DNA of 41,758 bases, from IMG/VR virus record IMGVR_UViG_3300035523_000130, positions 1-41,758 of that record. One strand, given 5' to 3'. The notes under the pieces were generated by a model. The model had not been told where the DNA came from. It saw only the letters and a list, made by a program, of their open reading frames with translations, and made no database searches. The DNA comes from a virus. The translations under genes and the position numbers were made by a program. The first letter of the stretch is position 1; each line of letters opens with the position of its first letter. Below are positions 26,412 to 38,819 of the stretch, in pieces.

Positions 26412-26921
26412 TCAGCGCTTGCCCGCCTTGGCCTTGTCGGCGGCATGCTTTTGCCGAGCCTCATTCCGCACCGTCATCAAAGTTTCAGATGACTCCTGAA
26501 CTGCCTTTTCAATCCTGGCCAGCTCTTTATCATCAACAAAGTTGTCCTTATCGAGCGCCTTTCGTATCTGCTCAGCAAGCTGACCATCATGGGAAAATAG
26601 TTCAGCCACCAGGCTCAGCAACTTGTCACTATCAACGTCATCACCATGGGGCAAGCGAACCGATACTCGGTTCAACCGCCACATCAAGGCATCAACGGCC
26701 AGATCACCCGCATCCGGCTTGGTCGCATCCAGAAACTCAACGATCTCTGCAAAGTTTTCCAGCGTCGTGTGGTGCGTCTCAATGTCAGGCCGCAACTTGT
26801 TCCGCAGTACATTGGGGGAAATGCCCATACGCAGGGCCAGTGCCTCAATACCACCCGGGTAATCCCTCGCGGCAATGTAAAGCGCGTCATGGACGCCAAT
26901 TTCGCTATATCGCTTAACCAC
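26412..26921 (-). CDS. CII-family phage regulatory protein
   Basis: A 169-residue protein matching phage regulatory CII-family proteins: DALYIAARDYPGGIEALALRMGISPNVLRNKLRP (HTH, about residues 11-45), ETHHTTLENFAEIVEFL, and a charged helical C-terminus. The start is GTG at 26921 with GAGGAG about 8 nt upstream. It lies between the cro operon terminator and the primase gene. It probably activates a lysogeny or integrase promoter; the target site was not identified. Confidence 0.8.
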   Translation of the reverse strand: MVKRYSEIGVHDALYIAARDYPGGIEALALRMGISPNVLRNKLRPDIETHHTTLENFAEIVEFLDATKPDAGDLAVDALMWRLNRVSVRLPHGDDVDSDKLLSLVAELFSHDGQLAEQIRKALDKDNFVDDKELARIEKAVQESSETLMTVRNEARQKHAADKAKAGKR

Positions 26922-26981
26922 GGTTAAGGCTCCTCTCGGTTACCGTTTTTTATTGACACCCCTCGCCCCACAATAAAAAAA

Positions 26982-27007
26982 CGCCAGGGCCCAACTGCTG
27001 CCCGGCG
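26982..27007 (-). terminator. Early terminator (tR1-like) between cro operon and cII-like gene
   Basis: A stem of CGCC + GGGC against GCCC + GGCG with one bulged A, then a minus-strand run of seven Ts. It lies 60 bp before the cII-like start, the same relative place as lambda tR1. The surrounding 190-bp gap (26922-27111) contains no convincing gene. Confidence 0.82.
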
Positions 27008-27111
27008 CAAAACCCCACGAAGGGGCTGGAGGAGACGGTGATGCAAATGGAAAACTTGATACCCGGCTGGACACACCGGATAGAAATGGGATGTAGCGTT
27101 GAGCACGCACG

Positions 27112-27375
27112 TCATGGACGCCGATCCCTCTTCATTGCTCGTTCAGCACCGCGCATAAAAGCCGCCACGAGTTTGGAAGGTTCATTCCCTTTTCCTGCCA
27201 ACAACCAGCGAGTAAACGACACCACCGACGCAGATCCCTTATCGCCTGATGACGTCAATGCTGCGATTAGTCCATGGACAGAATCCATCCCTTTAGGGCC
27301 ATCGATGGAAACCTTCCCGGTTTTCAGATCGACACGGATCACCAGCTCAAGGGAAGACTTATCGGGCTCAGTCAT
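27112..27375 (-). CDS. Hypothetical early protein after cro (87 aa)
   Basis: An 87-residue protein beginning MTEPDKSSLELVIRVDLKTGKVSIDGPKG, then a helical region (SFTRWLLAGKGNEPSKLVAAFMRGAERAMKRDRRP). The ATG at 27375 overlaps the end of the Cro-like gene by 8 bases and has GGTGATCGG upstream. Second gene of the leftward immediate-early transcript. No family recognised. Confidence 0.65.
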   Translation of the reverse strand: MTEPDKSSLELVIRVDLKTGKVSIDGPKGMDSVHGLIAALTSSGDKGSASVVSFTRWLLAGKGNEPSKLVAAFMRGAERAMKRDRRP

Positions 27376-27616
27376 TCCGATCACCAGCAAGACCGAGTTG
27401 CTGCCGGGTAGTCTTTATGATTTTTCCAACCGGAGACTGGCAAAGCTCTGCATGGAGCGTTCGCAATGCCTCTCCGTCGGCCCACTTGATGTCTTGAAAC
27501 TTTCTGGCCAGCAAAGAGCCGACCCAAGCCTGAGATTTACCGAGACGAGCCCCAAGGGCTTGCTGGGTCAAGCCAGTTTCCAAAAGTTCTTGCACGAGTT
27601 TGATATGGGTATCCAT
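27368..27616 (-). CDS. Cro-like HTH regulator, leaderless mRNA
   Basis: An 82-residue DNA-binding protein with a classic helix-turn-helix: GLTQQALGARLGKSQAWVGSLLARK (about residues 15-39). A strong promoter lies so close upstream that the predicted transcript starts at or within one base of the ATG at 27616, leaving no room for a ribosome-binding site. The longer open frame to 27670 would include the promoter and operators, so it is rejected. It is the first gene of the lytic transcript and probably competes with the divergent repressor for the same operators. Confidence 0.8.
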   Translation of the reverse strand: MDTHIKLVQELLETGLTQQALGARLGKSQAWVGSLLARKFQDIKWADGEALRTLHAELCQSPVGKIIKTTRQQLGLAGDRND

Positions 27617-27622
27617 GCCCAC

Positions 27623-27651
27623 ATTATCACGTTCGTGTTTTTTTCTGTCAA
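27623..27651 (-). promoter_or_regulatory. Early lytic promoter (TTGACA-N17-GATAAT)
   Basis: On the minus strand TTGACA (27651-27646) is separated by exactly 17 bp from GATAAT (27628-27623). The start point should fall at about 27616-27617. Both hexamers overlap operator sequences, so binding of a repressor would block RNA polymerase directly. Confidence 0.9.
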
Positions 27652-27687
27652 CACCATCGTGATAGACCAAATCATCACAATTAGGTT
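27626..27687. promoter_or_regulatory. Three operators spaced 24 bp apart in the genetic switch
   Basis: Quasi-palindromic 14-mers begin at 27626 (ATCACGTTCGTGTT), 27650 (AACACCATCGTGAT) and 27674 (ATCACAATTAGGTT, degenerate right half). Spacing is exactly 24 bp, slightly more than two helical turns. The third abuts the start codon of the repressor gene and may serve in its autoregulation. The same motif pair recurs at 28785-28822. Confidence 0.82.
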
Positions 27688-28074
27688 ATGACGGAATTTA
27701 AGGAAAGACTCATTACAGCCCGCGAGACTGCAGGGCTAACACAAACGGAGCTAGCCAAGAAAGCTGGCTGCCGCCAGTCCGTCATTGGAATGCTTGAATC
27801 GGGGGCTCGCCGCAATACCAAACACCTGCTTGGGATAGCAAAAGCCCTATCAGTATCTCCAGAATGGCTAGAAACTGGTCAAACATCACTGACTGCTTGC
27901 GAACCAACAGCAAGTTATGGACTTCCTAGCCCAGAAGAGGCAATAGTCCTTCAGGCATTCCGCTTAGCCAGTCCAGATATGAGGCTAATGTGGCTAACCC
28001 AGGCAAAGATCATCATAGAGACAGCCGACACCCCCTCAATGCTCTCCGGCAAAAACGGGCCCAAGCCAGGATGA
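27688..28074 (+). CDS. Phage repressor, short XRE-family HTH
   Basis: A 128-residue protein with an N-terminal XRE-type HTH: RETAGLTQTELAKKAGCRQSVIGMLESGARR (about residues 10-40). The C-terminal part is short and has no S24/LexA-like Ser-Lys peptidase domain, so RecA-stimulated self-cleavage is not expected. Induction would need an antirepressor or another signal. It is divergent from the Cro-like gene across three operators. There is no clear Shine-Dalgarno before the ATG, so its mRNA too may be leaderless. Confidence 0.82.
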   Translation: MTEFKERLITARETAGLTQTELAKKAGCRQSVIGMLESGARRNTKHLLGIAKALSVSPEWLETGQTSLTACEPTASYGLPSPEEAIVLQAFRLASPDMRLMWLTQAKIIIETADTPSMLSGKNGPKPG

Positions 28075-28168
28075 GCGCAGGCGGGCCTAATACCAAAGGC
28101 ATATATACAGAGCCAATAAAAGCCGCTATCGTCAACTTCCCTACTCAGATCAAATTGGATTTTGATTA

Positions 28169-28720
28169 ATGGCTCTAATCAATTGTAAAGAATGCAACGC
28201 TCAAGTTAGTACAGAGGCCAAGAGCTGCCCGCATTGCGGCGCAAAAGTAAGTTTTAAGAAACCTGTAAGCCTACTTGTTAAGCTGTTTCTCATTGCGCTC
28301 GGTATTGGCATAGTTGGCGCCACCATAGACAGCAACAGAGTCAAGGAAGCCAGGGAGCAAGCTGAGGCTGCCAAAAGTCCCCAACAAAAAGTCAAAGAAG
28401 AATCAGACAGAAAAAAGCATGAAGTCCTGATCCAATGGGGAATCGCAGGGGCTATGCAACTTAAAAATGGCATGAAAGATCCAGCTACCTTCGAGCTAAC
28501 ATCTCTCTATCTAACCCCCACTGACTTTGCTTGCTATGAATACCGAGCAAAAAACAGCTTCGGTGCGATTCTCCCTAGCTCCGCAGTACTTACCCCTAAA
28601 GGGAAACTCCTATTAAGGGAAAGAGATAATGGGGCGTTTGCGACCAACTGGAACAAAGAATGTACTAAACCAGGCGGCGAAGAAATCAAGACTATTGCCG
28701 CCAGAACTGGGCTTCTTTAA
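28169..28720 (+). CDS. Zinc-ribbon membrane protein next to repressor
   Basis: A 183-residue protein with an N-terminal zinc ribbon (CKECNAQVSTEAKSCPHCG, four Cys within the first 23 residues). One membrane helix follows (about residues 33-52: LLVKLFLIALGIGIVGA), then a charged linker and a C-terminal domain (MKDPATFELTSLYLTPTDFACYEYRAKNSFGA). It lies with the repressor on the plus strand and is followed by a terminator, so it is probably expressed in the lysogen. A role in altering the host envelope or excluding other phages is possible but unproven. Confidence 0.75.
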   Translation: MALINCKECNAQVSTEAKSCPHCGAKVSFKKPVSLLVKLFLIALGIGIVGATIDSNRVKEAREQAEAAKSPQQKVKEESDRKKHEVLIQWGIAGAMQLKNGMKDPATFELTSLYLTPTDFACYEYRAKNSFGAILPSSAVLTPKGKLLLRERDNGAFATNWNKECTKPGGEEIKTIAARTGLL

Positions 28721-28742
28721 GCAATTATTCAGACCGATCCAC

Positions 28743-28764
28743 AACCCGCTGCGGCGGGGTTTTT
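28743..28764 (+). terminator. Terminator ending the repressor transcript
   Basis: Stem AACCCGC / GCGGGGTT with one bulged G and a 4-nt loop, followed on the plus strand by TTTTATT. It insulates the repressor transcript from the promoter-operator module 20 bp downstream. Confidence 0.82.
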
Positions 28765-28784
28765 ATTGCCTATTAAAATGAATT

Positions 28785-28825
28785 ATCACATTCGTGTTGA
28801 CACAGTAAAACACATTCGTGATAAT
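28785..28825 (+). promoter_or_regulatory. Second promoter-operator module, driving the DGR operon
   Basis: Operators ATCACATTCGTGTT (28785-28798) and AACACATTCGTGAT (28809-28822) are 24 bp apart and overlap TTGACA (28797-28802) and GATAAT (28820-28825), separated by exactly 17 bp. The layout is the same as the cro promoter read in the opposite direction, and the fixed positions are identical; only spacer bases differ. The start point should be near 28832, about 40 nt before the first gene. Confidence 0.9.
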
Positions 28826-28871
28826 TCACCCAAGCGCACCCCACCCCGGGGGCATTTCTTGGGAGAACGTC

Positions 28872-29081
28872 ATGGCAAAGCAGCACACACCCGCCCGGCA
28901 AATCCAGCAGGCCAAGCAGATTGCCCGCGACTACGGCATGCACATTGCCGAGTGCAAGACCAACTCAGGCACCGACTACGTCGTCTATCGGGATACCGAT
29001 ACCGGTGATGTTCGCTTAGGCAAGCGCTCCAGCCCCAGCGGCTTGTTTCAGTTCGTCAGCCGCTTGGCTTACACGCACTGA
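28872..29081 (+). CDS. First gene of DGR operon, small basic protein (69 aa)
   Basis: A 69-residue protein (MAKQHTPARQIQQAKQIARDYGMH onward) with TDYVVYRDTDTGDVRLGKR in the middle. The ATG at 28872 is preceded by GGGAG about 7 nt upstream and lies about 40 nt after the predicted start of transcription; upstream in-frame starts fall in or beside the promoter and are rejected. Function unknown. Confidence 0.72.
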   Translation: MAKQHTPARQIQQAKQIARDYGMHIAECKTNSGTDYVVYRDTDTGDVRLGKRSSPSGLFQFVSRLAYTH

Positions 29082-29092
29082 GGGAAGCGGAA

Positions 29093-29278
29093 ATGCCACT
29101 TCACTCCCTTCCCGAACTCCAGGCCGCCTACCAAACCGCCCATCTTGGCGACCGTGGCATCAGCCTTGAACTGGCCCTGGCTAACCCCTACCTGCGCGAC
29201 ACCCTTGAATCCGAAGCCGATCACACGGCCCCGGAGGCTGCTGTGCAGACGTCTGCAACCCAACCCAAGGCCCACTGA
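29093..29278 (+). CDS. Small hypothetical protein (61 aa)
   Basis: A 61-residue acidic protein (HSLPELQAAYQTAHLGDRG) with a low-complexity Ala/Thr/Pro tail. It starts 11 bases after the previous stop and ends one base before the next start. A perfect copy of the 14-bp palindrome lies in its 3' end (29244-29257). Family not recognised. Confidence 0.65.
   Translation: MPLHSLPELQAAYQTAHLGDRGISLELALANPYLRDTLESEADHTAPEAAVQTSATQPKAH
29244..29257. repeat. Copy 3 of 14-bp palindrome (perfect TGCAGACGTCTGCA)
   Basis: A perfect 14-bp palindrome, identical to the copy inside the ParB-like gene at 34019-34032. The two perfect copies flank the DGR cassette at a distance of 4.8 kb. Confidence 0.6.
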
Positions 29279-29279
29279 T

Positions 29280-29648
29280 ATGGCACTCATCCTCAAACTG
29301 CAAAAGCAGATCGTTGATCAGCAGACAAAACTGCTCAACGCCATTCCCCGGCTACGCATGGCTGAAGACCTTTCCGATCTGCTGCGCAATGCCGGCTTCA
29401 ATGCCCAAGCCCAGGCCAATCTGGACGAAATGGCCCTGACGGTCATTGTCTTCATCCTCTCCCCCTTTGCCCCGGCCATCAGCGCCATTGAGCATGCGGG
29501 CTTTGCCATGGTCCATGTTGGCACGGTAGATGGCGACTCCCTCAACCTGCGCAGCTTCCGCGCCGAGGCCAATGGCCTTGAGCTGTCAGTCGTCATTCAG
29601 GCGCCCAGCAAAACCACCCTGGAACTGGTCAAGCCATGCGCAGCCTGA
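29280..29648 (+). CDS. Hypothetical early protein (122 aa)
   Basis: A 122-residue protein with a helical N-terminus (LILKLQKQIVDQQTKLLNAIPRL) and a mixed C-terminal part (SAIEHAGFAMVHVGTVDGDSLNLRSF). The ATG at 29280 is chosen because it follows the preceding stop by one base; upstream in-frame codons lie within the other gene. No motif recognised. Confidence 0.65.
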   Translation: MALILKLQKQIVDQQTKLLNAIPRLRMAEDLSDLLRNAGFNAQAQANLDEMALTVIVFILSPFAPAISAIEHAGFAMVHVGTVDGDSLNLRSFRAEANGLELSVVIQAPSKTTLELVKPCAA

Positions 29649-29746
29649 CTGCCCTCCTCCACCGTGCCGCCGCTTGGCTGCGCGACTACCGCGTTTGGGT
29701 GCATGAGGTTGCCTCCAATCAGCGCATCGCCACTACTGATTATTAA
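29636..29746 (+). CDS. Very small overlapping protein (36 aa)
   Basis: A 36-codon frame overlapping the end of the previous gene by 13 bases and ending 15 bases before the P-loop gene. The product (MRSLTALLHRAAAWLRDYRVW onward) has an amphipathic basic helix. It fills an otherwise empty gap in a tightly packed operon. There is no strong ribosome-binding site, so translation by coupling is assumed. Confidence 0.4.
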   Translation: MRSLTALLHRAAAWLRDYRVWVHEVASNQRIATTDY

Positions 29747-29761
29747 TACTGAGGAATAGAT

Positions 29762-30139
29762 ATGGAACACGAACTAAAGCAAGGGCAAGCACTTGTCATC
29801 GTCGGGGCCCAGGGCAGCGGAAAGACCACATTGGCTCGGAAGATTGCCGAACGGTATGGTTCGTTTATCGAGGTCAGTGCTGATCGATTGGAATCGCATC
29901 AAGGACTGAACGATCTTCTGGCACACGCCAAGCAAACAGTAATTGTTGAAGGCTTCCCAGAGAACAAAGAACAGCAGTGCTGGCTTAAGGCACTAATTAC
30001 TACCCCCACCATCAAGGTAGAAAAAAAGTACGGCGTGGCGGAAACGGTCAAGGTGCCGAACTTCATCTTTTGTACCAGCGATGCTGATCCCCTTCCAAAG
30101 ATTGAGCCAGGCCGTCGCTTCCGAGTGATCAAGCTATGA
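29762..30139 (+). CDS. Small P-loop ATPase-like protein (125 aa)
   Basis: A 125-residue protein with a clear Walker A motif VGAQGSGKTTLARKIAERYG (about residues 15-34) and a Walker B-like strand KQTVIVEGFP (near 60). KVPNFIFCTSDADPLPKIEPGRRFRVIKL closes the protein, like the end of an AAA-type core. It is half the size of normal AAA proteins, so it may be a compact kinase-like or accessory ATPase. AGGAA precedes the ATG. It is two genes before the DGR target genes. Confidence 0.75.
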   Translation: MEHELKQGQALVIVGAQGSGKTTLARKIAERYGSFIEVSADRLESHQGLNDLLAHAKQTVIVEGFPENKEQQCWLKALITTPTIKVEKKYGVAETVKVPNFIFCTSDADPLPKIEPGRRFRVIKL

Positions 30140-30321
30140 ATCGGGCGATCACGATCATCAAGGACCGCAAGCCCGTCAGCGGCCCTCATCGCGCAGCCAC
30201 TAGCCGCAGGGAGCTAATCCCCTGCATGTGCTGCCTTAAGCCCTTCCCCAGCGAAGACCGGCAACGAAACCGCCTTTGCACTTCCTGCAAAAGCAAACCC
30301 ACCAGTCCTTATTCAATCTGA
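30136..30321 (+). CDS. Small zinc-finger-like protein (61 aa)
   Basis: A 61-residue basic protein with two Cys pairs spaced like a zinc ribbon (CMCC near residue 30-33 and CTSCK near 49-52). The ATG overlaps the preceding stop (ATGA). Probably a nucleic-acid or protein adaptor; function unknown. Confidence 0.7.
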   Translation: MNRAITIIKDRKPVSGPHRAATSRRELIPCMCCLKPFPSEDRQRNRLCTSCKSKPTSPYSI

Positions 30322-30332
30322 AAGGAATCACC

Positions 30333-30950
30333 ATGAATGCACCCGCACCAACCATCATCCCCGCCATTGGCGCTACCGTCCCTGGTGGCTTCTTTGCTGG
30401 CACCATTCTGATTGATGATCAACGTTATGGCTTGGCAGTACCGCCCAAAGCCTTGGGGGAACACAAGCCCACCATCTGGATTCCTAACTACAAGGATATC
30501 CCTGGTGCCAAATCTTTCTACGACGGCCTAGCTAATACCCGGGCAATGGCTGAGGCTGGCAGCAAGCTGGCCCAGTGGGCGCTTGAACTGGAAATCGATG
30601 GTTGCACCGATTTCTACATCCCAGCTCAAGATGAGAAGGAAATCATCTACCGGGTATTCAAGCCTGGTACTGCTAAGAACTCCCAGTACGCGCGCTCCGG
30701 CATCAACTTGTCAGCCCTGCCGCCGACTCGTCCTTATTCGCTGGAAAACCCTGCTCAGACGGTTATCGAGGCTTTCCAGGAGGGAGGTGTCGAGGCTTTT
30801 GAAGCTGATGCCTACTGGACATCCACGCAGCACGCAGCCATTTCCTATTTTGCCTGGTACCAGGGTTTCAGCTACGGCGTCCAGTACGGCCTCAACACCA
30901 ACCTCAAGCTGCCTGCTCGCGCCGTCCGCAGATTTCATTTACCCCTTTAA
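30333..30950 (+). CDS. DGR variable protein 1 (C-type-lectin-like, DUF1566/Lcl type)
   Basis: A 205-residue target protein. The N-terminal 150 residues contain an Ala/Pro-rich start, AGTILIDDQRYGLAVPP and LEIDGCTDFYIPAQDEKEIIY. The variable C-terminus has YWTSTQHAA, then AWYQGF and KLPARAVRR, the layout of DUF1566 (Lcl) domains that adopt a C-type-lectin fold. Residues altered relative to the template are I170, Y172, F173, G178, S180, Y181, V183, Y185, G186, L187, L191 and V198; N188 and N190 keep the template codon. No signal peptide. The ATG at 30333 has AAAGGA 7 nt upstream; a longer frame is rejected. Confidence 0.9.
   Translation: MNAPAPTIIPAIGATVPGGFFAGTILIDDQRYGLAVPPKALGEHKPTIWIPNYKDIPGAKSFYDGLANTRAMAEAGSKLAQWALELEIDGCTDFYIPAQDEKEIIYRVFKPGTAKNSQYARSGINLSALPPTRPYSLENPAQTVIEAFQEGGVEAFEADAYWTSTQHAAISYFAWYQGFSYGVQYGLNTNLKLPARAVRRFHLPL
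30826..30933 (+). repeat. Variable repeat VR1
   Basis: A 108-bp segment at the 3' end of target gene 1 aligned without gaps to TR 32032-32139. I count 17 differences, all at TR adenines (A to G, T or C). The GC-rich 3' part (CTGCCTGCTCGCGCC) is fully conserved and would serve as the initiation-of-mutagenic-homology region. Confidence 0.96.
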
Positions 30951-30982: not shown

Positions 30983-31471
30983 GTGCGCGTCAATCAAAAC
31001 GAGTCGATAACGCTGGCTGTTGCTGGCGCTGATGTCACCATCCCGGCGGCTACTTTGGCTGATCTGTGGATCAAGAAGCTATTAGCCAGCAGCGCGCAGA
31101 TGACTGATAGCAGCATGCTTATCAAGCAACCCCCTCTAGCCGATGGAGAGATTTACCTCGGCGCCATCATCACTCCCAAGATTCGTAAACACATCATCTT
31201 GCTGCCCGGTGAAAACGCTGATGCCAATTGGAAGCACCAAATGGAGTGGGCAGCCAGCATAGGTGGCCAGCTTTTCGACCGAGTAGAGGGGGCACTTCTC
31301 TTTGCCACCATGCCCGAGCAATTCAAGAAAGAAGCGTACTGGACCCGCGAGCAGCCCGCAGCCATTTCAGGTTGTGCCTGGTACCAGGGTTTCACCAGCG
31401 GCCTCCAGAGCAGCAGCGACACCGACGGCAAGCTGCCTGCTCGCGCCATCCGCAGCGAATCCATTGAGTAA
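30983..31471 (+). CDS. DGR variable protein 2 (DUF1566/Lcl type)
   Basis: A 162-residue second target, GTG start at 30983 with AGGAG upstream. IILLPGENADANWKHQMEWAASIGGQ and FDRVEGALLFATMPEQFK are typical of the family of lectin-fold DGR targets. The variable end begins after AYWTREQPAAI and has AWYQGF and KLPARAIRS. Altered residues include P125, I128, G130, C131, G136, T138, S139, L141, S143-S145, D146, D148 and G149. It shares only the fold and the VR with protein 1, so the two have distinct scaffolds fed by one template. Confidence 0.9.
   Translation: MRVNQNESITLAVAGADVTIPAATLADLWIKKLLASSAQMTDSSMLIKQPPLADGEIYLGAIITPKIRKHIILLPGENADANWKHQMEWAASIGGQLFDRVEGALLFATMPEQFKKEAYWTREQPAAISGCAWYQGFTSGLQSSSDTDGKLPARAIRSESIE
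31351..31455 (+). repeat. Variable repeat VR2
   Basis: A 105-bp segment aligned without gaps to TR 32033-32137. I count 17 differences, all at TR adenines. The 3' conserved GC-rich part matches TR exactly up to CGCAG. Confidence 0.96.
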
Positions 31472-31501: not shown

Positions 31502-31873
31502 ATGGCACTCCACACCGAGCTACCGATACATAAGACAGCCTACGACCTGCTGGACATTGTCGTGGATCTCATAAAAAACATGCGCAGGGACTTTAAGCAC
31601 TCCCTGGGCGGTGAGTTGCGCGATGAATGTCTGGCAGTCCTAGTGTCCATCTTTCGAGCCAATGTCGCCCGAGAAAAAACGCCTCATCTGGACCAGCTCA
31701 TTGAGCATATTCAGGTAGCAGTTCTCCTCTTGCGCCTTGCACGGGATAAGCGATTCATTTCGACCGAGCAATTCGCTCGAACGATGCCGCTCACCCAAAG
31801 TATCGGTAAACAGGCTGTGGCATGGCGCCGTTCCGCCGCATCGCCCGATTCACGGGGGTCAAGGCTCCCATGA
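31502..31873 (+). CDS. avd: DGR accessory variability determinant (Avd-like)
   Basis: A 123-residue basic, all-helical protein of the four-helix-bundle type found in DGRs: YDLLDIVVDLIKNMRRDFKHSLGGELRD near the N-terminus, then FRANVAREK and HIQVAVLLLRLARDKRFISTEQFA. Avd forms a pentamer that binds the RT and the TR RNA and is needed for retrohoming. Its place between VR genes and TR matches the usual DGR order. The ATG at 31502 lacks a strong ribosome-binding site. The last few residues could be a read-on beyond the folded domain. Confidence 0.85.
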   Translation: MALHTELPIHKTAYDLLDIVVDLIKNMRRDFKHSLGGELRDECLAVLVSIFRANVAREKTPHLDQLIEHIQVAVLLLRLARDKRFISTEQFARTMPLTQSIGKQAVAWRRSAASPDSRGSRLP

Positions 31874-32031
31874 CTGTGCGAATTCTTGATCTGGTCGTGC
31901 CGCTGGCTCACAAGGCCACCGCTATGTGCATCACGGAGACTACCGGCAGCCTGCCGGAACAGTCCGGCGCAGTTTCCTTGCTGATCGGCCAGAACGGACT
32001 TCGGCAGGGCGACGTAGATAGCACGATAGGT
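31874..32031 (+). other. Non-coding leader between avd and TR
   Basis: 158 bases with no convincing gene and several GC-rich inverted repeats (for example around 31944-31970, where GGCAGCCTGCC is followed by GGAACAGTCCGGCG). In other DGRs the functional RNA extends beyond TR on both sides and folds to bind Avd-RT, so this is probably part of the template RNA. Confidence 0.5.
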
Positions 32032-32139
32032 CGCAGCACGCAGCCAATTCAAATTATGCCTGGTACCAGGATTTCAACAACGGCAACCAGAACAACAACA
32101 ACACCAACAACAAGCTGCCTGCTCGCGCCATCCGCAGAT
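32032..32139 (+). repeat. Template repeat TR
   Basis: A 108-bp template containing about 37 adenines. Read in the VR frame it encodes A-N-S-N-Y-A-W-Y-Q-D-F followed by nine AAC codons among ACC, GGC and CAG, then KLPARAIRR and a stop. AAC is the codon that adenine mutagenesis diversifies most widely without creating stops. TR lies upstream of, and partly inside, the RT reading frame. Confidence 0.96.
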
Positions 32140-33255
32140 GAAACACGGCACCACCCTGCTGATCTTTTTATTGCACTGGTACAGGCCTATTACGCCTGCC
32201 GGGAGAACAAACGCAATACCGAAAGCGCCCTGGACTTTGAGCAGCACCTAGAGCGAAACCTGTGCAACCTTTACGATGAACTGGTCGAGGGAACCTATCG
32301 TCCTGGTCGCAGCATCTGCTTTGTTGTCACCCGCCCGAAGCCTCGCGAGGTATGGGCTGCCGACTTCCGGGACCGCATCGTTCACCACCTGCTCTACAAC
32401 CATGTTGCGCCACGGTACTACGCCAGCTTCATCGCCGATTCCTGCGCTTGCATTCCGGGCCGGGGCACCCTCTACGCCGCCAAGCGGCTGGAATCAAAAG
32501 TGCGCAGCATTACCCAAAACTGGAGCAAGCCAGCCTTCTATCTCAAGATGGATGTGGCTAACTTCTTTGTCTCCATCAACAAGCAGGTTCTATATGAACT
32601 ACTAGCAGCCCGAATCACTGAGCCCTGGTGGTTAGGGCTGACCGATACCATCCTGTTTCATGACCCGCGCCAGAACTTTGAGTATAGGGGCCGTATCGAT
32701 CTGCTTGGCCTAGTGCCGGAACATAAGCGCCTGACCAACCAGCCAAGTCATCTAGGGCTACCCATCGGCAACCTGTCCAGCCAATTCTTTGCCAACGTTT
32801 TTCTCGACGTACTGGATCAGTTCTGCAAACACAAGATCGGCGCTAAGCACTACATCCGCTATGTGGATGATTTTGTCCTTCTGCATGAATCACCACAGTG
32901 GCTAAACGATGCGAAAGAGCAAATTGAAGCTTTTGTTATCAAACGCCTCGGTCTTCGCATCAACCCCACCAAGACCATTCTTCAACCAATAGATCGTGGG
33001 ATTGATTTTGTCGGGCACGTCATCAAGCCATGGCGTACTGAACCCCGCAAACGTACCGCCAACGCGGCCATGACACGGGTCATGACAGTACCTACCGATT
33101 CTTTGTTTGAAACCGCCAACAGCTACTTTGGCTTGTTCCGCCAAGCCACCGCCAGCCACCAGCAACGGTGCCGACTGGCAAATCACCTTCGCCGACGAGG
33201 CCACACCATCAACGGCGCCATCACCAAAACCTACCGCAGGAGAAACCACGCATGA
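32056..33255 (+). CDS. DGR reverse transcriptase
   Basis: A retron/group-II-like RT. Conserved blocks are RPKPREVWAADFRDRIVHHL (fingers), FYLKMDVANFFVSIN (catalytic Asp), GLPIGNLSSQFFANVFLD, and YIRYVDDFVLL with YVDD at 32860-32871. The SQ in place of QG in motif 4 is the DGR signature linked to low fidelity. The start is uncertain: the only downstream ATG before the conserved domain is at 32056, inside TR, and the frame stays open to 31822. If 32056 is used, TR is translated as a Thr-rich leader. The stop overlaps the ParB-like start (ATGA). Confidence 0.93.
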   Translation: MPGTRISTTATRTTTTPTTSCLLAPSADETRHHPADLFIALVQAYYACRENKRNTESALDFEQHLERNLCNLYDELVEGTYRPGRSICFVVTRPKPREVWAADFRDRIVHHLLYNHVAPRYYASFIADSCACIPGRGTLYAAKRLESKVRSITQNWSKPAFYLKMDVANFFVSINKQVLYELLAARITEPWWLGLTDTILFHDPRQNFEYRGRIDLLGLVPEHKRLTNQPSHLGLPIGNLSSQFFANVFLDVLDQFCKHKIGAKHYIRYVDDFVLLHESPQWLNDAKEQIEAFVIKRLGLRINPTKTILQPIDRGIDFVGHVIKPWRTEPRKRTANAAMTRVMTVPTDSLFETANSYFGLFRQATASHQQRCRLANHLRRRGHTINGAITKTYRRRNHA

Positions 33256-35792
33256 ACGCACCTACCCCGGCTGGCGCCTTGGCGCTGCCAAGCATCCCCC
33301 TGGTCGACATTACCCCCTCGCCCACCAACCCCCGCAAGCATTTCGACGAGGGCGCTCTAGCTGAACTGGCAGCTACCATCAAGGATCATGGCGTCATCCA
33401 GCCCATTACTGTGCGCCCTAACCCCAAGGGCGAACCGCTTTATGAAATTGTGGTGGGCGAGCGGCGCTGGCGTGCTTCCCGGCTCGCTGGCATGACGGAC
33501 ATTCCCGCCTTCTGGCGCGAACTCACCGACCAGCAGGTGCTTGAGATCCAGATCATCGAAAACCTGCAGCGCAACGACGTGCATCCCCTGGAAGAAGCCG
33601 AGGGCTACCGTTTACTGATGGAAGAGCACGGCTATACGGTCGAACAGATCGCCAACAAGATCGGCAAGGACTTGCAGAAGAAGTCCTACGTCTATGCCCG
33701 CCTCAAACTGCTGGACCTATGCCAGGAAGCCCGCAACATCATGTTCGAGCGCAAGCTCGATGCCTCCACCGCCCTGCTAATCGCCCGCATCCCGACCCCA
33801 GGCTTGCAGAAACAGGCACTGAAGCAAATCGCGGTCGAAGGCGCAGAACCAATGTCCTACCGGGCTGCCAAAAACCACATTCAGCATAACTTCACCATCA
33901 GCCTCAAACAGGCTACCTTTAGCCTGACCGATGCCAGCCTGGTGGAAACCGTGGGCAGCTGCCAGGACTGCACCAAGCGTAGCGGAAATGCCCCTGAGCT
34001 TTTCGGCGATACCGACGATGCAGACGTCTGCAGTGACACCAAGTGCTTCGATGCCAAGAAAGCCGCCAAGCAACAGAAGCTGATTGATGAAGCCTCCGCC
34101 AACAGCATCCCCATTTTGCGCGGTGACGATGCCAAGGCTGTCATGCCATGGGGCCGTAATACCCTTGACGATGAAAAGTACATCGACCTGGACGATGTGG
34201 CTGATGGTGATGTAGAGGAACGTACCTACCGCGAGATCCTTGGCGACACTGCTCCAGTGTCAGCCCTCATTGAGTCGAATGGACACCAAGAGAAGGGCAT
34301 TCTGATTGAAGTAGCAGAACCCTCTGCCTTGGCCGAGGCCTTACAAAAGGCAGGCTGGAAGCCGCAAGAGCAACCCGAGGAAAACACTGGCGACACGCCA
34401 CGCTTCCCGACAGTTCGCGTCATTACCCCAGAGCAGATCGAGGCCGAGCACAAGGAACGGGAAGCCAAAGAGCGCGAGAACAAGATCGAATCCGCATGGC
34501 GCGAACGGCTGATTGATCAGTGCCTATTTACCCTACCCGACACCCTGTTCGACCAGGACACCCTGGAAAAGACTATCAAGATCTTTGCTGGCCAATGGGT
34601 CGACATGGAAGCCGAGTTTTCTGGCATCGACGAGGATTTAGTTGCTAAGTACGGTCACCACATCCCAGAAGAGTGCGACCAAGAAGAAGCAGCGGCCACA
34701 TTGATCAAAGCGATGCAGCAGTGGGATCTCGGCAAGGTGATCACCTACCTGTTCGAGTCCATCATTCGACAACGCTCCGAAAAGATCGTCGGCTTCTACT
34801 GGAAAGATGGGCAGCAATTCCGCGATCAGCCCAATACCACCATGGCACTGGCCGAATTCCTTGGCATTGACCATACCCGCATCCGCGCTCAGGTAGTTTC
34901 AGAGATCAACGGCGATTCCCAGCCGAAAACCAACGGGAACCCCTCTAAAAAGCCCAAGAAAACCACCAAATCGACCCCTTCTGGCCTTGCCGAAACTGCC
35001 CCTACCCCAAAAATGGCTGCGCCGGCGGCGAGGATAGGTGACGCGGAGGATGGACTGGAAGCCCGCCCGAACATCCGCTACGCCCTATGGGGCTCCGCTG
35101 GCTGGATAACCTGGAGCGGTAAGGGGAAGAAGCCCGCTTGGATCGAGCAATGGCTGGCGAATGGAAAAACCCTGGAAGACCTGGAAGCAAAGGCAGATCC
35201 AGCGCCCGCTGCGCAGGCGAACGAAAACCCCACCTCCGACGCGACCGGGGATAACTCCGGCGAAGAAGAGAATCTAGCCCAGGCTGCGCCTGGGAACGAG
35301 TCGCCTGTGGCGACGGGTGCAGACTCAACCAATGGCGACCTCTTCGGCCAGGTCAGCGGCGACTGGCCCCAGCCCAACGAGCACGGTGTCTATGCCGCCG
35401 ACCAGGCCGAGCTGATCACTATCGACACGAAGAAGGCCAAGATAGAGGGCTACGTGCTGCAGATCGGCGCCGAGTCCTGGATCTGGGCCGTGGACACAAC
35501 GCGCAAGGGAGCAACCACCGGAGGCAGTTCGTCCCCCCTCACCGCTCACCAGGTCACCGCCACGCGTGATGGAGCGATCGCCATAGTCGGCCAGGAAGCC
35601 TCTCAGCACGTCTACCGCTGGATCGATAGCGATGGCATCAATGCTGACTTCAAGCGCATCAAGGCCTGGGCCGATGAGCTGCTGGTGAATGGCGAGAACG
35701 CCGAGTGCCTGGCTAAGAAACCAGAGGAGAAGAAAGCCACGATCTCCGTGCCCGTCAGTGAGTGGCCCTTCCCCACGGGGAGCCGGCCATGA
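33252..35792 (+). CDS. Very large ParB-like protein (846 aa)
   Basis: An N-terminal ParB/Spo0J domain (about residues 12-110) contains PSPTNPRKHFDEGALAEL, VGERRWRASRLAGM and ENLQRNDVHPLEEAEGYRLL. An HTH follows (YTVEQIANKIGKDLQKKSYVYARLKLL) and a Cys-containing segment (SCQDCTKRS ... CSDTKCFD, about 230-265). After that comes an unusual long region with charged helices and two low-complexity linkers (about 560-610 and 640-710). Ordinary ParB proteins have about 300 residues, so the C-terminal half is extra. It may bind the palindromes listed here. No ParA-like gene is present. The ATG at 33252 overlaps the RT stop. Confidence 0.85.
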   Translation: MNAPTPAGALALPSIPLVDITPSPTNPRKHFDEGALAELAATIKDHGVIQPITVRPNPKGEPLYEIVVGERRWRASRLAGMTDIPAFWRELTDQQVLEIQIIENLQRNDVHPLEEAEGYRLLMEEHGYTVEQIANKIGKDLQKKSYVYARLKLLDLCQEARNIMFERKLDASTALLIARIPTPGLQKQALKQIAVEGAEPMSYRAAKNHIQHNFTISLKQATFSLTDASLVETVGSCQDCTKRSGNAPELFGDTDDADVCSDTKCFDAKKAAKQQKLIDEASANSIPILRGDDAKAVMPWGRNTLDDEKYIDLDDVADGDVEERTYREILGDTAPVSALIESNGHQEKGILIEVAEPSALAEALQKAGWKPQEQPEENTGDTPRFPTVRVITPEQIEAEHKEREAKERENKIESAWRERLIDQCLFTLPDTLFDQDTLEKTIKIFAGQWVDMEAEFSGIDEDLVAKYGHHIPEECDQEEAAATLIKAMQQWDLGKVITYLFESIIRQRSEKIVGFYWKDGQQFRDQPNTTMALAEFLGIDHTRIRAQVVSEINGDSQPKTNGNPSKKPKKTTKSTPSGLAETAPTPKMAAPAARIGDAEDGLEARPNIRYALWGSAGWITWSGKGKKPAWIEQWLANGKTLEDLEAKADPAPAAQANENPTSDATGDNSGEEENLAQAAPGNESPVATGADSTNGDLFGQVSGDWPQPNEHGVYAADQAELITIDTKKAKIEGYVLQIGAESWIWAVDTTRKGATTGGSSSPLTAHQVTATRDGAIAIVGQEASQHVYRWIDSDGINADFKRIKAWADELLVNGENAECLAKKPEEKKATISVPVSEWPFPTGSRP
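34019..34032. repeat. Copy 4 of 14-bp palindrome (perfect TGCAGACGTCTGCA)
   Basis: A perfect palindrome inside the ParB-like gene, in the codons just before the CSDTKC motif. Many chromosomal and plasmid parS sites are short palindromes near or in par genes. Confidence 0.6.
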
Positions 35793-37560: not shown

Positions 37561-37941
37561 ATGAATACACTCGACCTCCAGGCTGCTGCCGACTTCTTGG
37601 GGCTGCATAAAAACACCCTCCAGGCCAGAGCCAAGGCCGGAGAGATACCTGGTGCAAAGATCGGGAAGGAATGGCGATTCATCGACGTGGATCTGGCCCA
37701 GTACCTTCGTGATCAATACCCGGCGAATAAGATCGAGGAGAAGCAGTCGTGTCGCTCTACAAAGTCGAAGACATCTGGTACGTCTATATCACGCCACCTA
37801 AAGGGGGCCAGCGAATTAGACGCACTACTGGAACATCCGACAAAAAGGAAGCCCAGCGCATCCACGACGAACTCAAGGCAGAACTCTGGAATCGGAAAGT
37901 CAGTGGTTCGTATCTTTCCGACGCTCTCACACGGTGGCTGA
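37561..37941 (+). CDS. Excisionase-like MerR/HTH DNA-binding protein
   Basis: A 126-residue frame whose first 60 residues form an excisionase-type winged helix: LDLQAAADFLGLHKNTLQARAKAGEIPGAKIGKEWRF and VDLAQYLRDQYP. The family bends DNA at att sites to favour excision. The frame continues 64 codons past the integrase start, where its composition becomes Ser/Thr/Lys-rich, so the true functional part may be just the N-terminus. The ATG at 37561 is preferred to a start nine codons earlier. Confidence 0.72.
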   Translation: MNTLDLQAAADFLGLHKNTLQARAKAGEIPGAKIGKEWRFIDVDLAQYLRDQYPANKIEEKQSCRSTKSKTSGTSISRHLKGASELDALLEHPTKRKPSASTTNSRQNSGIGKSVVRIFPTLSHGG

Positions 37942-38819
37942 AGCAGAAGCCGAGATCCAGGAACGAAAAAAACGCCCTTAAGCAGTTTCTCCGGCTCTAT
38001 CCTGATCGCCCTATCAATGACATCACCGGGCCAGATATCGCTGAGGCCCTGGAAGACAAGTCAGCGGCTACAGCAAACCGCACTATCTCGATAGTGAGGG
38101 CTGCGCTCAACCTTGAGCATGAAGCCCAAAAGATCGGCAAGCCACCCAAAATCCCCACCAGAAGCGTCAGCAATGCCAGATTGCGCTGGCTGACTCGGGC
38201 TGAGTGGGATCGCCTCTATAAAGCCCTTCCGGCCCATATCAAGCCGATGGCCAAGTTTGCGGTATCCACAGGATTGCGCCAGGCCAATGTATTTTCATTA
38301 CGCTGGGCCGATGTGGATATGGGGCGCCGCGTGATGTGGGTTGAAGCAACCCAGGCCAAGGCCAGGAAGGCTATTGGCATTCCTCTGTCGGACGACGCGA
38401 TGGAAGCCTTGGCTTCTGTTAGTGGACAGCATGAGGATTTCGTTTTTACCTACCGAGGAAAACCTGTCGAATCAGTCAAAACAGCCTTTGGCAAAGCCCT
38501 GGCCAGGGCCGGCCTTGGTCAATGGGTTGCTGCAGACGATCCCAAGGATGAAAACGACAAGGTATTTGAGCCCAACACCACCTGGCACGATTTACGTCAC
38601 ACCTGGGCAAGCTGGCATGTGCAAGCCGGAACACCTCTGGCCGTGCTCAAGGAATTAGGTGGTTGGGCTACAATGGATATGGTTCTGCGCTATGCACATC
38701 TGGCGCCGGACCATTTGGCTTCCTGGGCGAACAATGCCACAAAGTACGCCATAGGAAATCAGGAAACCCAGGCAGCCTCGGTAGCTCAGTGGATAGAGCG
38801 ACCCCCTCCTAAGGGGTAG
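37749..38819 (+). CDS. Tyrosine-recombinase integrase, ends inside tRNA-Arg
   Basis: A 356-residue site-specific recombinase. The N-terminal arm-binding region (LYKVEDIWYVYITPP) is followed by a core-binding domain (about 50-130) and the catalytic domain. Catalytic residues are Arg177 (STGLRQANVFSLRW), His280 and Arg283 (WHDLRHTW), Trp306 and Tyr315 (LRYAHLAP). The GTG at 37749 has GGAG about 8 nt upstream. The last 14 codons (VAQWIERPPPKG and two before) are read through the 5' half of the tRNA gene, so that tail is set by the attachment site and is unlikely to matter. Confidence 0.95.
   Translation: MSLYKVEDIWYVYITPPKGGQRIRRTTGTSDKKEAQRIHDELKAELWNRKVSGSYLSDALTRWLKQKPRSRNEKNALKQFLRLYPDRPINDITGPDIAEALEDKSAATANRTISIVRAALNLEHEAQKIGKPPKIPTRSVSNARLRWLTRAEWDRLYKALPAHIKPMAKFAVSTGLRQANVFSLRWADVDMGRRVMWVEATQAKARKAIGIPLSDDAMEALASVSGQHEDFVFTYRGKPVESVKTAFGKALARAGLGQWVAADDPKDENDKVFEPNTTWHDLRHTWASWHVQAGTPLAVLKELGGWATMDMVLRYAHLAPDHLASWANNATKYAIGNQETQAASVAQWIERPPPKG

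Follow-up and report, generated by a model that had tools for sequence, protein, structure and literature searches.

Phage DGRs are usually discussed together with late tail genes. The DGR of Bordetella phage BPP-1 consists of a reverse transcriptase (RT), Avd and TR/VR repeats with adenine mutagenesis, and its target is a tail fibre. To our knowledge, the timing of phage DGR mutagenesis, and the state of the virus in which it takes place, are mostly unknown. In the hankyphage of Bacteroides, most phage genes were upregulated when the CI-like repressor RepC-HP was silenced, and the study reports induced DGR activity (PMC12135933). Roux et al. 2021 inferred a seemingly constant DGR activity in populations (PMC8144416). 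Burkholderia phage Magia (NC_070954), with an RT 66% identical to the one described here, likewise carries its DGR between a C2-like repressor and the integrase, on the exo/RecT/xis/int strand and with two short lectin-fold targets; the available part of its announcement reports the DGR and is silent on its control (PMC7883833). No description of a DGR in a pL operon was found in open-licence papers. For the genetic switch itself, the reference is lambda (J02459), with the gene order oL/pL - rex - cI - oR/pR - cro.

The window (the whole stretch of viral DNA analysed, 41,758 nt) reads as a prophage. Its late genes run leftward, in an arm headed by the cro-like regulator, CII and a primase-helicase. 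The cI-like repressor gene and a gene with a zinc ribbon point rightward and are followed by an operon of about 10 kb up to the integrase. A GAF/adenylate-cyclase-like gene, read from the translation, lies 3' of the integrase at the right end, where the DNA looks like that of the host. The immunity region contains the following features:

26412-26921, minus strand: CII-like activator (PF06892, E 8e-29), in the pR operon
27368-27616, minus strand: cro-like regulator (remote match to PHROG 6831), start codon 6 nt 3' of the pR -10
27623-27664, minus strand: module A, predicted oR/pR, facing the cro-like gene; operators 27626-27639 and 27650-27663
27674-27687, plus strand: candidate oR3, ATCACAATTAGGTT; 8/10 match in the exact 24-bp register, abutting the cI start codon
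27688-28074, plus strand: cI-like repressor, 128 aa (HTH_3)
28169-28720, plus strand: gene in the position of lambda rexAB, with a zinc ribbon and an apparent membrane segment
28745-28766, plus strand: terminator-like hairpin closing the cI operon just 5' of oL
28784-28825, plus strand: module B, predicted oL/pL; operators 28785-28798 and 28809-28822
28826-28865, plus strand: pL leader hairpin (CCCAAG...CTTGGG), its 3' arm adjoining the first pL gene's ribosome-binding site

Modules A (minus, 27664-27623; TATCACGATGGTGTTGACAGAAAAAAACACGAACGTGATAAT) and B (plus, 28784-28825; TATCACATTCGTGTTGACACAGTAAAACACATTCGTGATAAT) are divergent and lie on either side of cI. Each contains TTGACA-N17-GATAAT and two inverted 14-mers at a spacing of 24 bp, which overlap the -35 (GTGTTGACA) and the -10 (GTGATAAT); the consensus of the two 42-bp modules is ATCACN4GTGTTGACA-N6-AACACN4GTGATAAT. 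In module B the hexamers TTGACA (28797-28802) and GATAAT (28820-28825) are each overlapped by an operator. The original prediction, whose coordinate 28785 falls one base inside module B, had described two near-copies with this spacing, these hexamers and equal overlaps, and all of this was confirmed. In an inverted 42-mer pair search the identity of A and B was 33/42, compared with 29/42 for the runner-up in 21.7 kb and 28/42 for the best pair in 300 dinucleotide shuffles of 26800-29800. The two promoters are the top two sigma-70 matches in 27-39 kb (11/12 each). ATCACN4GTGTT occurs four times without mismatch in 41.8 kb, each time inside one of the two modules, and a relaxed 21-base module pattern matched the window twice, at the modules, where none was expected by chance. 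The operator count is two at oL and, at oR, two plus the weak site at 27674-27687; operator matches of at least 8/10 have a per-position frequency of 0.0009.

Judged from its sequence, the pair is a lambda-type oR/pR and oL/pL around cI in mirror image, and module B is the predicted pL, a standard lambda part. Common to lambda and the window are the divergent promoters, one operator sequence at oL and oR and an integrase in the pL arm, as well as cro and then CII after pR, although the cro match is remote. The J02459 annotation gives the same 24-bp spacing for oL1-oL2 and oR1-oR2. Aligned by the hexamers, with N17 counted from the end of the -35, lambda pR reads GCGTGTTGACT-N17-GATAAT and lambda pL GGTGTTGACA-N17-GATACT, to which GGTGTTGACA or CGTGTTGACA-N17-GATAAT corresponds in the window modules; shared are thus TTGAC[A/T]-N17-GATA[A/C]T with its N17 spacer and the GTGTTGAC and GTGATAAT operator/hexamer overlaps. 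Run on lambda, the inverted-pair search returned oL/oR as the top pair (29/42). The half-site TATCAC is that of lambda, whereas the operator centre has 4 bp in the window and 5 in lambda, and the window has 2+3 recognisable operators (oL+oR) compared with 3+3 in lambda. Three operators per side are a detail of lambda and not general. A domain search of the short cI-like protein found the HTH alone and no S24 peptidase domain. Lambda CI has this domain, but not all lambda relatives do; an S24-like C-terminus was read by eye in the cI proteins of G043, G031 and G041. Since the domain was not found, the trigger here is probably not SOS or RecA-stimulated self-cleavage. Also unlike lambda are the DGR in the pL operon and the predicted leaderless cro mRNA. 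The cro start lies 5-7 nt past the pR -10 in the window and in G003, G026, G031, G041, G042, G043, G045, L037 and L060, so that leaderless cro mRNAs are predicted across this group.

The module pair is not peculiar to the window. The 21-base pattern matched 40 viral contigs and 10 genomes (from Variovorax, Polaromonas, Pseudacidovorax, Mitsuaria, Propionivibrio, Massilia and Giesbergeria), and most matched contigs of sufficient length have a second operator cluster beyond the cI-like gene. Most module-bearing relatives, many of them Burkholderiales prophages, have no DGR in the sequence examined. This makes the switch generic, with the DGR as its cargo, and the proposal that a cro promoter had been duplicated specially for the DGR gives way to the ordinary oL/pL-oR/pR arrangement of lambda. 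CI relatives found by protein similarity (L002-L012) served as controls and showed no module pair above background (27-30/42), and none above background was seen in Aval and VarioGold, which have related ParB genes. With the cro-like protein as query, one relative was found. Related phages repeatedly have ParB-like genes in the pL arm, whether or not a DGR is present. Across 39 loci, pL transcripts seem to open with a hairpin whose 3' arm often includes GGAG, the first gene's ribosome-binding site; the arms co-vary, with a mean stem of 5.95 bp compared with 4.67 bp when the 5' arms were swapped among leaders (1000 swaps, maximum mean stem 5.28 bp).

The rightward operon contains the DGR 1.5-4.4 kb 3' of pL:

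28872-30321, plus strand: small early genes of the pL operon, with starts at 28872, 29093, 29280, 29762 (P-loop) and 30136
30333-30950, plus strand: DGR target 1, VR within about 30842-30932
30983-31471, plus strand: DGR target 2, VR within about 31365-31455
31502-31873, plus strand: Avd (bAvd PF22296; NCBIfam DivGenRetAVD)
31822-33255, plus strand: reverse transcriptase (RVT_1), DGR type assigned from relatives and context
31839-32033, plus strand: RT-15 structured RNA (RF03018, E 1.6e-43), just 5' of the TR
32048-32139, plus strand: TR, template repeat for both VRs
33252-35792, plus strand: ParB-like protein (ParB_N, HTH_ParB) with an H-NS-type motif at the C-terminus
37749-38819, plus strand: tyrosine integrase, at the distal end of the pL operon

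Over the best 90 nt, the TR differs from VR1 at 16 positions and from VR2 at 15, and every one of these mismatches (16/16 and 15/15) is at a TR adenine; the DGR is therefore genuine. It has the same components as that of BPP-1, whereas its targets are small, probably lectin-fold proteins of an early operon. The model of target 1 (pLDDT 74) had as best PDB match the C-type-lectin-like C-terminal domain of Legionella Lcl (E 1.7e-3, probability 1.00), and no tail domain was recognised in this protein. The true RT start is probably 3' of the TR. The RT-15 RNA is placed between Avd and TR, as it is in Cruim01, and RF03018 probably belongs to the template RNA of the DGR. The original prediction had put the DGR, ParB-like and integrase genes under module B, and they do follow it on one strand; its label of DGR operon promoter is right in that module B heads the DGR and too narrow in that the operon extends over about 10 kb to the integrase.

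The placement recurs. Close RT relatives were collected by scanning viral contigs with the RT, and in all eight other records that combine an RT 54-70% identical with an immunity region that could be located, chosen by RT or operator similarity and thus not a random sample, the DGR is on the pL side of cI. The modules flank cI and the identified DGR genes are on the pL strand, a statement that covers the identified homologues in these GC-rich relatives. In G042, G043, G044 and G045 the module pair was found de novo (31-36/42), and G003, G014, G026 and G031 have TCAC-type operators. Four fragmentary or more distant records (L073, L075, L076 and L077) were left out of this count. Close relatives of the zinc-ribbon gene in the rex position were present in 3/8 of the other DGR-bearing records (G014, G044, G031) and in 0/24 other records; a connection of this gene to the DGR, or ancestry in common, is possible.

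We regard the locus as a CI-repressed lambda-type switch in mirror image with the DGR as cargo of the early pL operon, to which we assign a probability of roughly 85%. The cI-like protein (27688-28074) would bind the 14-bp operators at oR and oL, and weakly that at 27674-27687, and would thereby cover the -35 and -10 of pR and pL together, so that neither the rightward early arm nor the cro-CII-replication-late arm would be expressed in the lysogen. Upon loss of repressor or fresh infection, pL would fire rightward near 28832 and give a transcript of about 10 kb that covers the small early genes, every part of the DGR (the two targets, probably of lectin fold, with Avd, RT-15 RNA, TR and RT), the ParB-like and further genes and the integrase. 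That transcription continues from pL as far as the RT is an assumption, since no match to an N-like antiterminator family was recognised among the scanned pL-operon proteins. The DGR would then probably be silent in the dormant virus and on when the virus wakes, and the targets would be diversified in the lytic or early-infection state and not in the quiet prophage. By analogy, the hankyphage may serve as a precedent for repressor-linked DGR induction. It is likewise a temperate phage with a DGR and a CI-like repressor; in contrast to the window, it is Mu-like and transposable, its DGR diversifies a tail fibre and the consulted portions of the study report no oL/oR pair (PMC12135933).

It is unlikely, although it deserves the most weight among the alternatives, that pL is repressed in the lysogen while an internal promoter, non-consensus or CII-type, expresses the DGR from the prophage for lysogenic conversion or surface variation. 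Target 1, as a small, probably lectin-fold protein with no recognised tail domain, could act in a lysogen, the window encodes a CII homologue, and there is a 113-bp gap 5' of the gene at 29762. The constant activity inferred in populations (PMC8144416) also points this way and fits poorly with strict silence in the lysogen; spontaneous induction could reconcile the two. On the other hand, a promoter scan across the operon found no further consensus sigma-70 promoter on the plus strand from pL to the integrase, the window genes are tightly packed, and in G042 and G026 a DGR-type target is among the earliest genes 3' of pL.

With two HTH genes at the modules, binding cannot be assigned from sequence alone, and lambda CI and Cro both bind all operator sites; the cro-like protein might serve one module and cI the other, their likeness being a relic of duplication without shared control. 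The operators of the relatives make this very improbable. At least five operator types occur across the DGR-bearing records, including TCACN4GTG, a 434-like ACAA...TTGT (G044), TTTAGAGT...TATA (G042), TTAAACA...TGTTTAA (G043) and TTATTAGCC (G045); inside each record oL and oR are of the same type, and there is no match between types. When oL and oR of 11 records including lambda were scored against each other, the matched sum was 235 compared with 107 for permuted pairs and was reached in 0/20000 permutations; for the DGR-bearing records alone the values were 194 and 94 (1/20000). Among TCAC-family operators, the centre class at oL correlated with that at oR (r = 0.97, n = 28, 0/20000 permutations). 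Because oL and oR change together across operator types, and thus appear to keep the same specificity, a single repressor per phage for both modules is well supported, and the one repressor originally proposed for the window very probably acts on both. This covariation is the best available stand-in for a binding experiment. Chance likeness of the modules, to which the letters shared by consensus hexamers contribute, is negligible given 33/42 against a shuffle maximum of 28 and the fact that all four exact operators lie in the modules, and is already refuted by the conservation of the pair in relatives.

The switch itself is mostly textbook lambda; what is new, and can be tested, is that the DGRs of one clade repeatedly occupy the pL arm. 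This offers a concrete answer on DGR timing for the whole clade, namely CI repression through oL. On this reading, the diversified proteins should function at an early stage of infection or upon induction and not as tail fibres. We see about even odds that this clade has been kept as CI-repressed pL cargo through repeated immunity swaps, with small lectin-fold, non-tail proteins hypermutated only at induction or new infection. In the cultured phages Magia, Cruim01, Haboob, LPPA56 and QDWS the RT is 61-67% identical and is encoded on the integrase strand, between the repressor and the integrase, the LPPA56 repressor being assigned from position alone as the record has no gene names. The same pair search gave a clear module pair in QDWS (33/42), pairs of borderline score where expected in Magia (29) and Haboob (26), and none in Cruim01, LPPA56 and SC_8. 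Two lectin-fold targets are annotated in the Magia record, and the DGR arm begins with one of these. Magia, QDWS and Haboob are suited to testing the prediction. More distant DGRs (RT 30-39% identical, L078-L095) include some module pairs of up to 38/42, but these are 3' of the RT, so that DGRs as a whole do not share the pL placement. The record G031 (L104, L064; a prophage like that of Polaromonas sp. OV174) carries a DGR in the pL arm and, separate from it, a second one at 33.7-37 kb, and in G026 (L101, about 554-1961) the RT relative is broken by one in-frame TGA.
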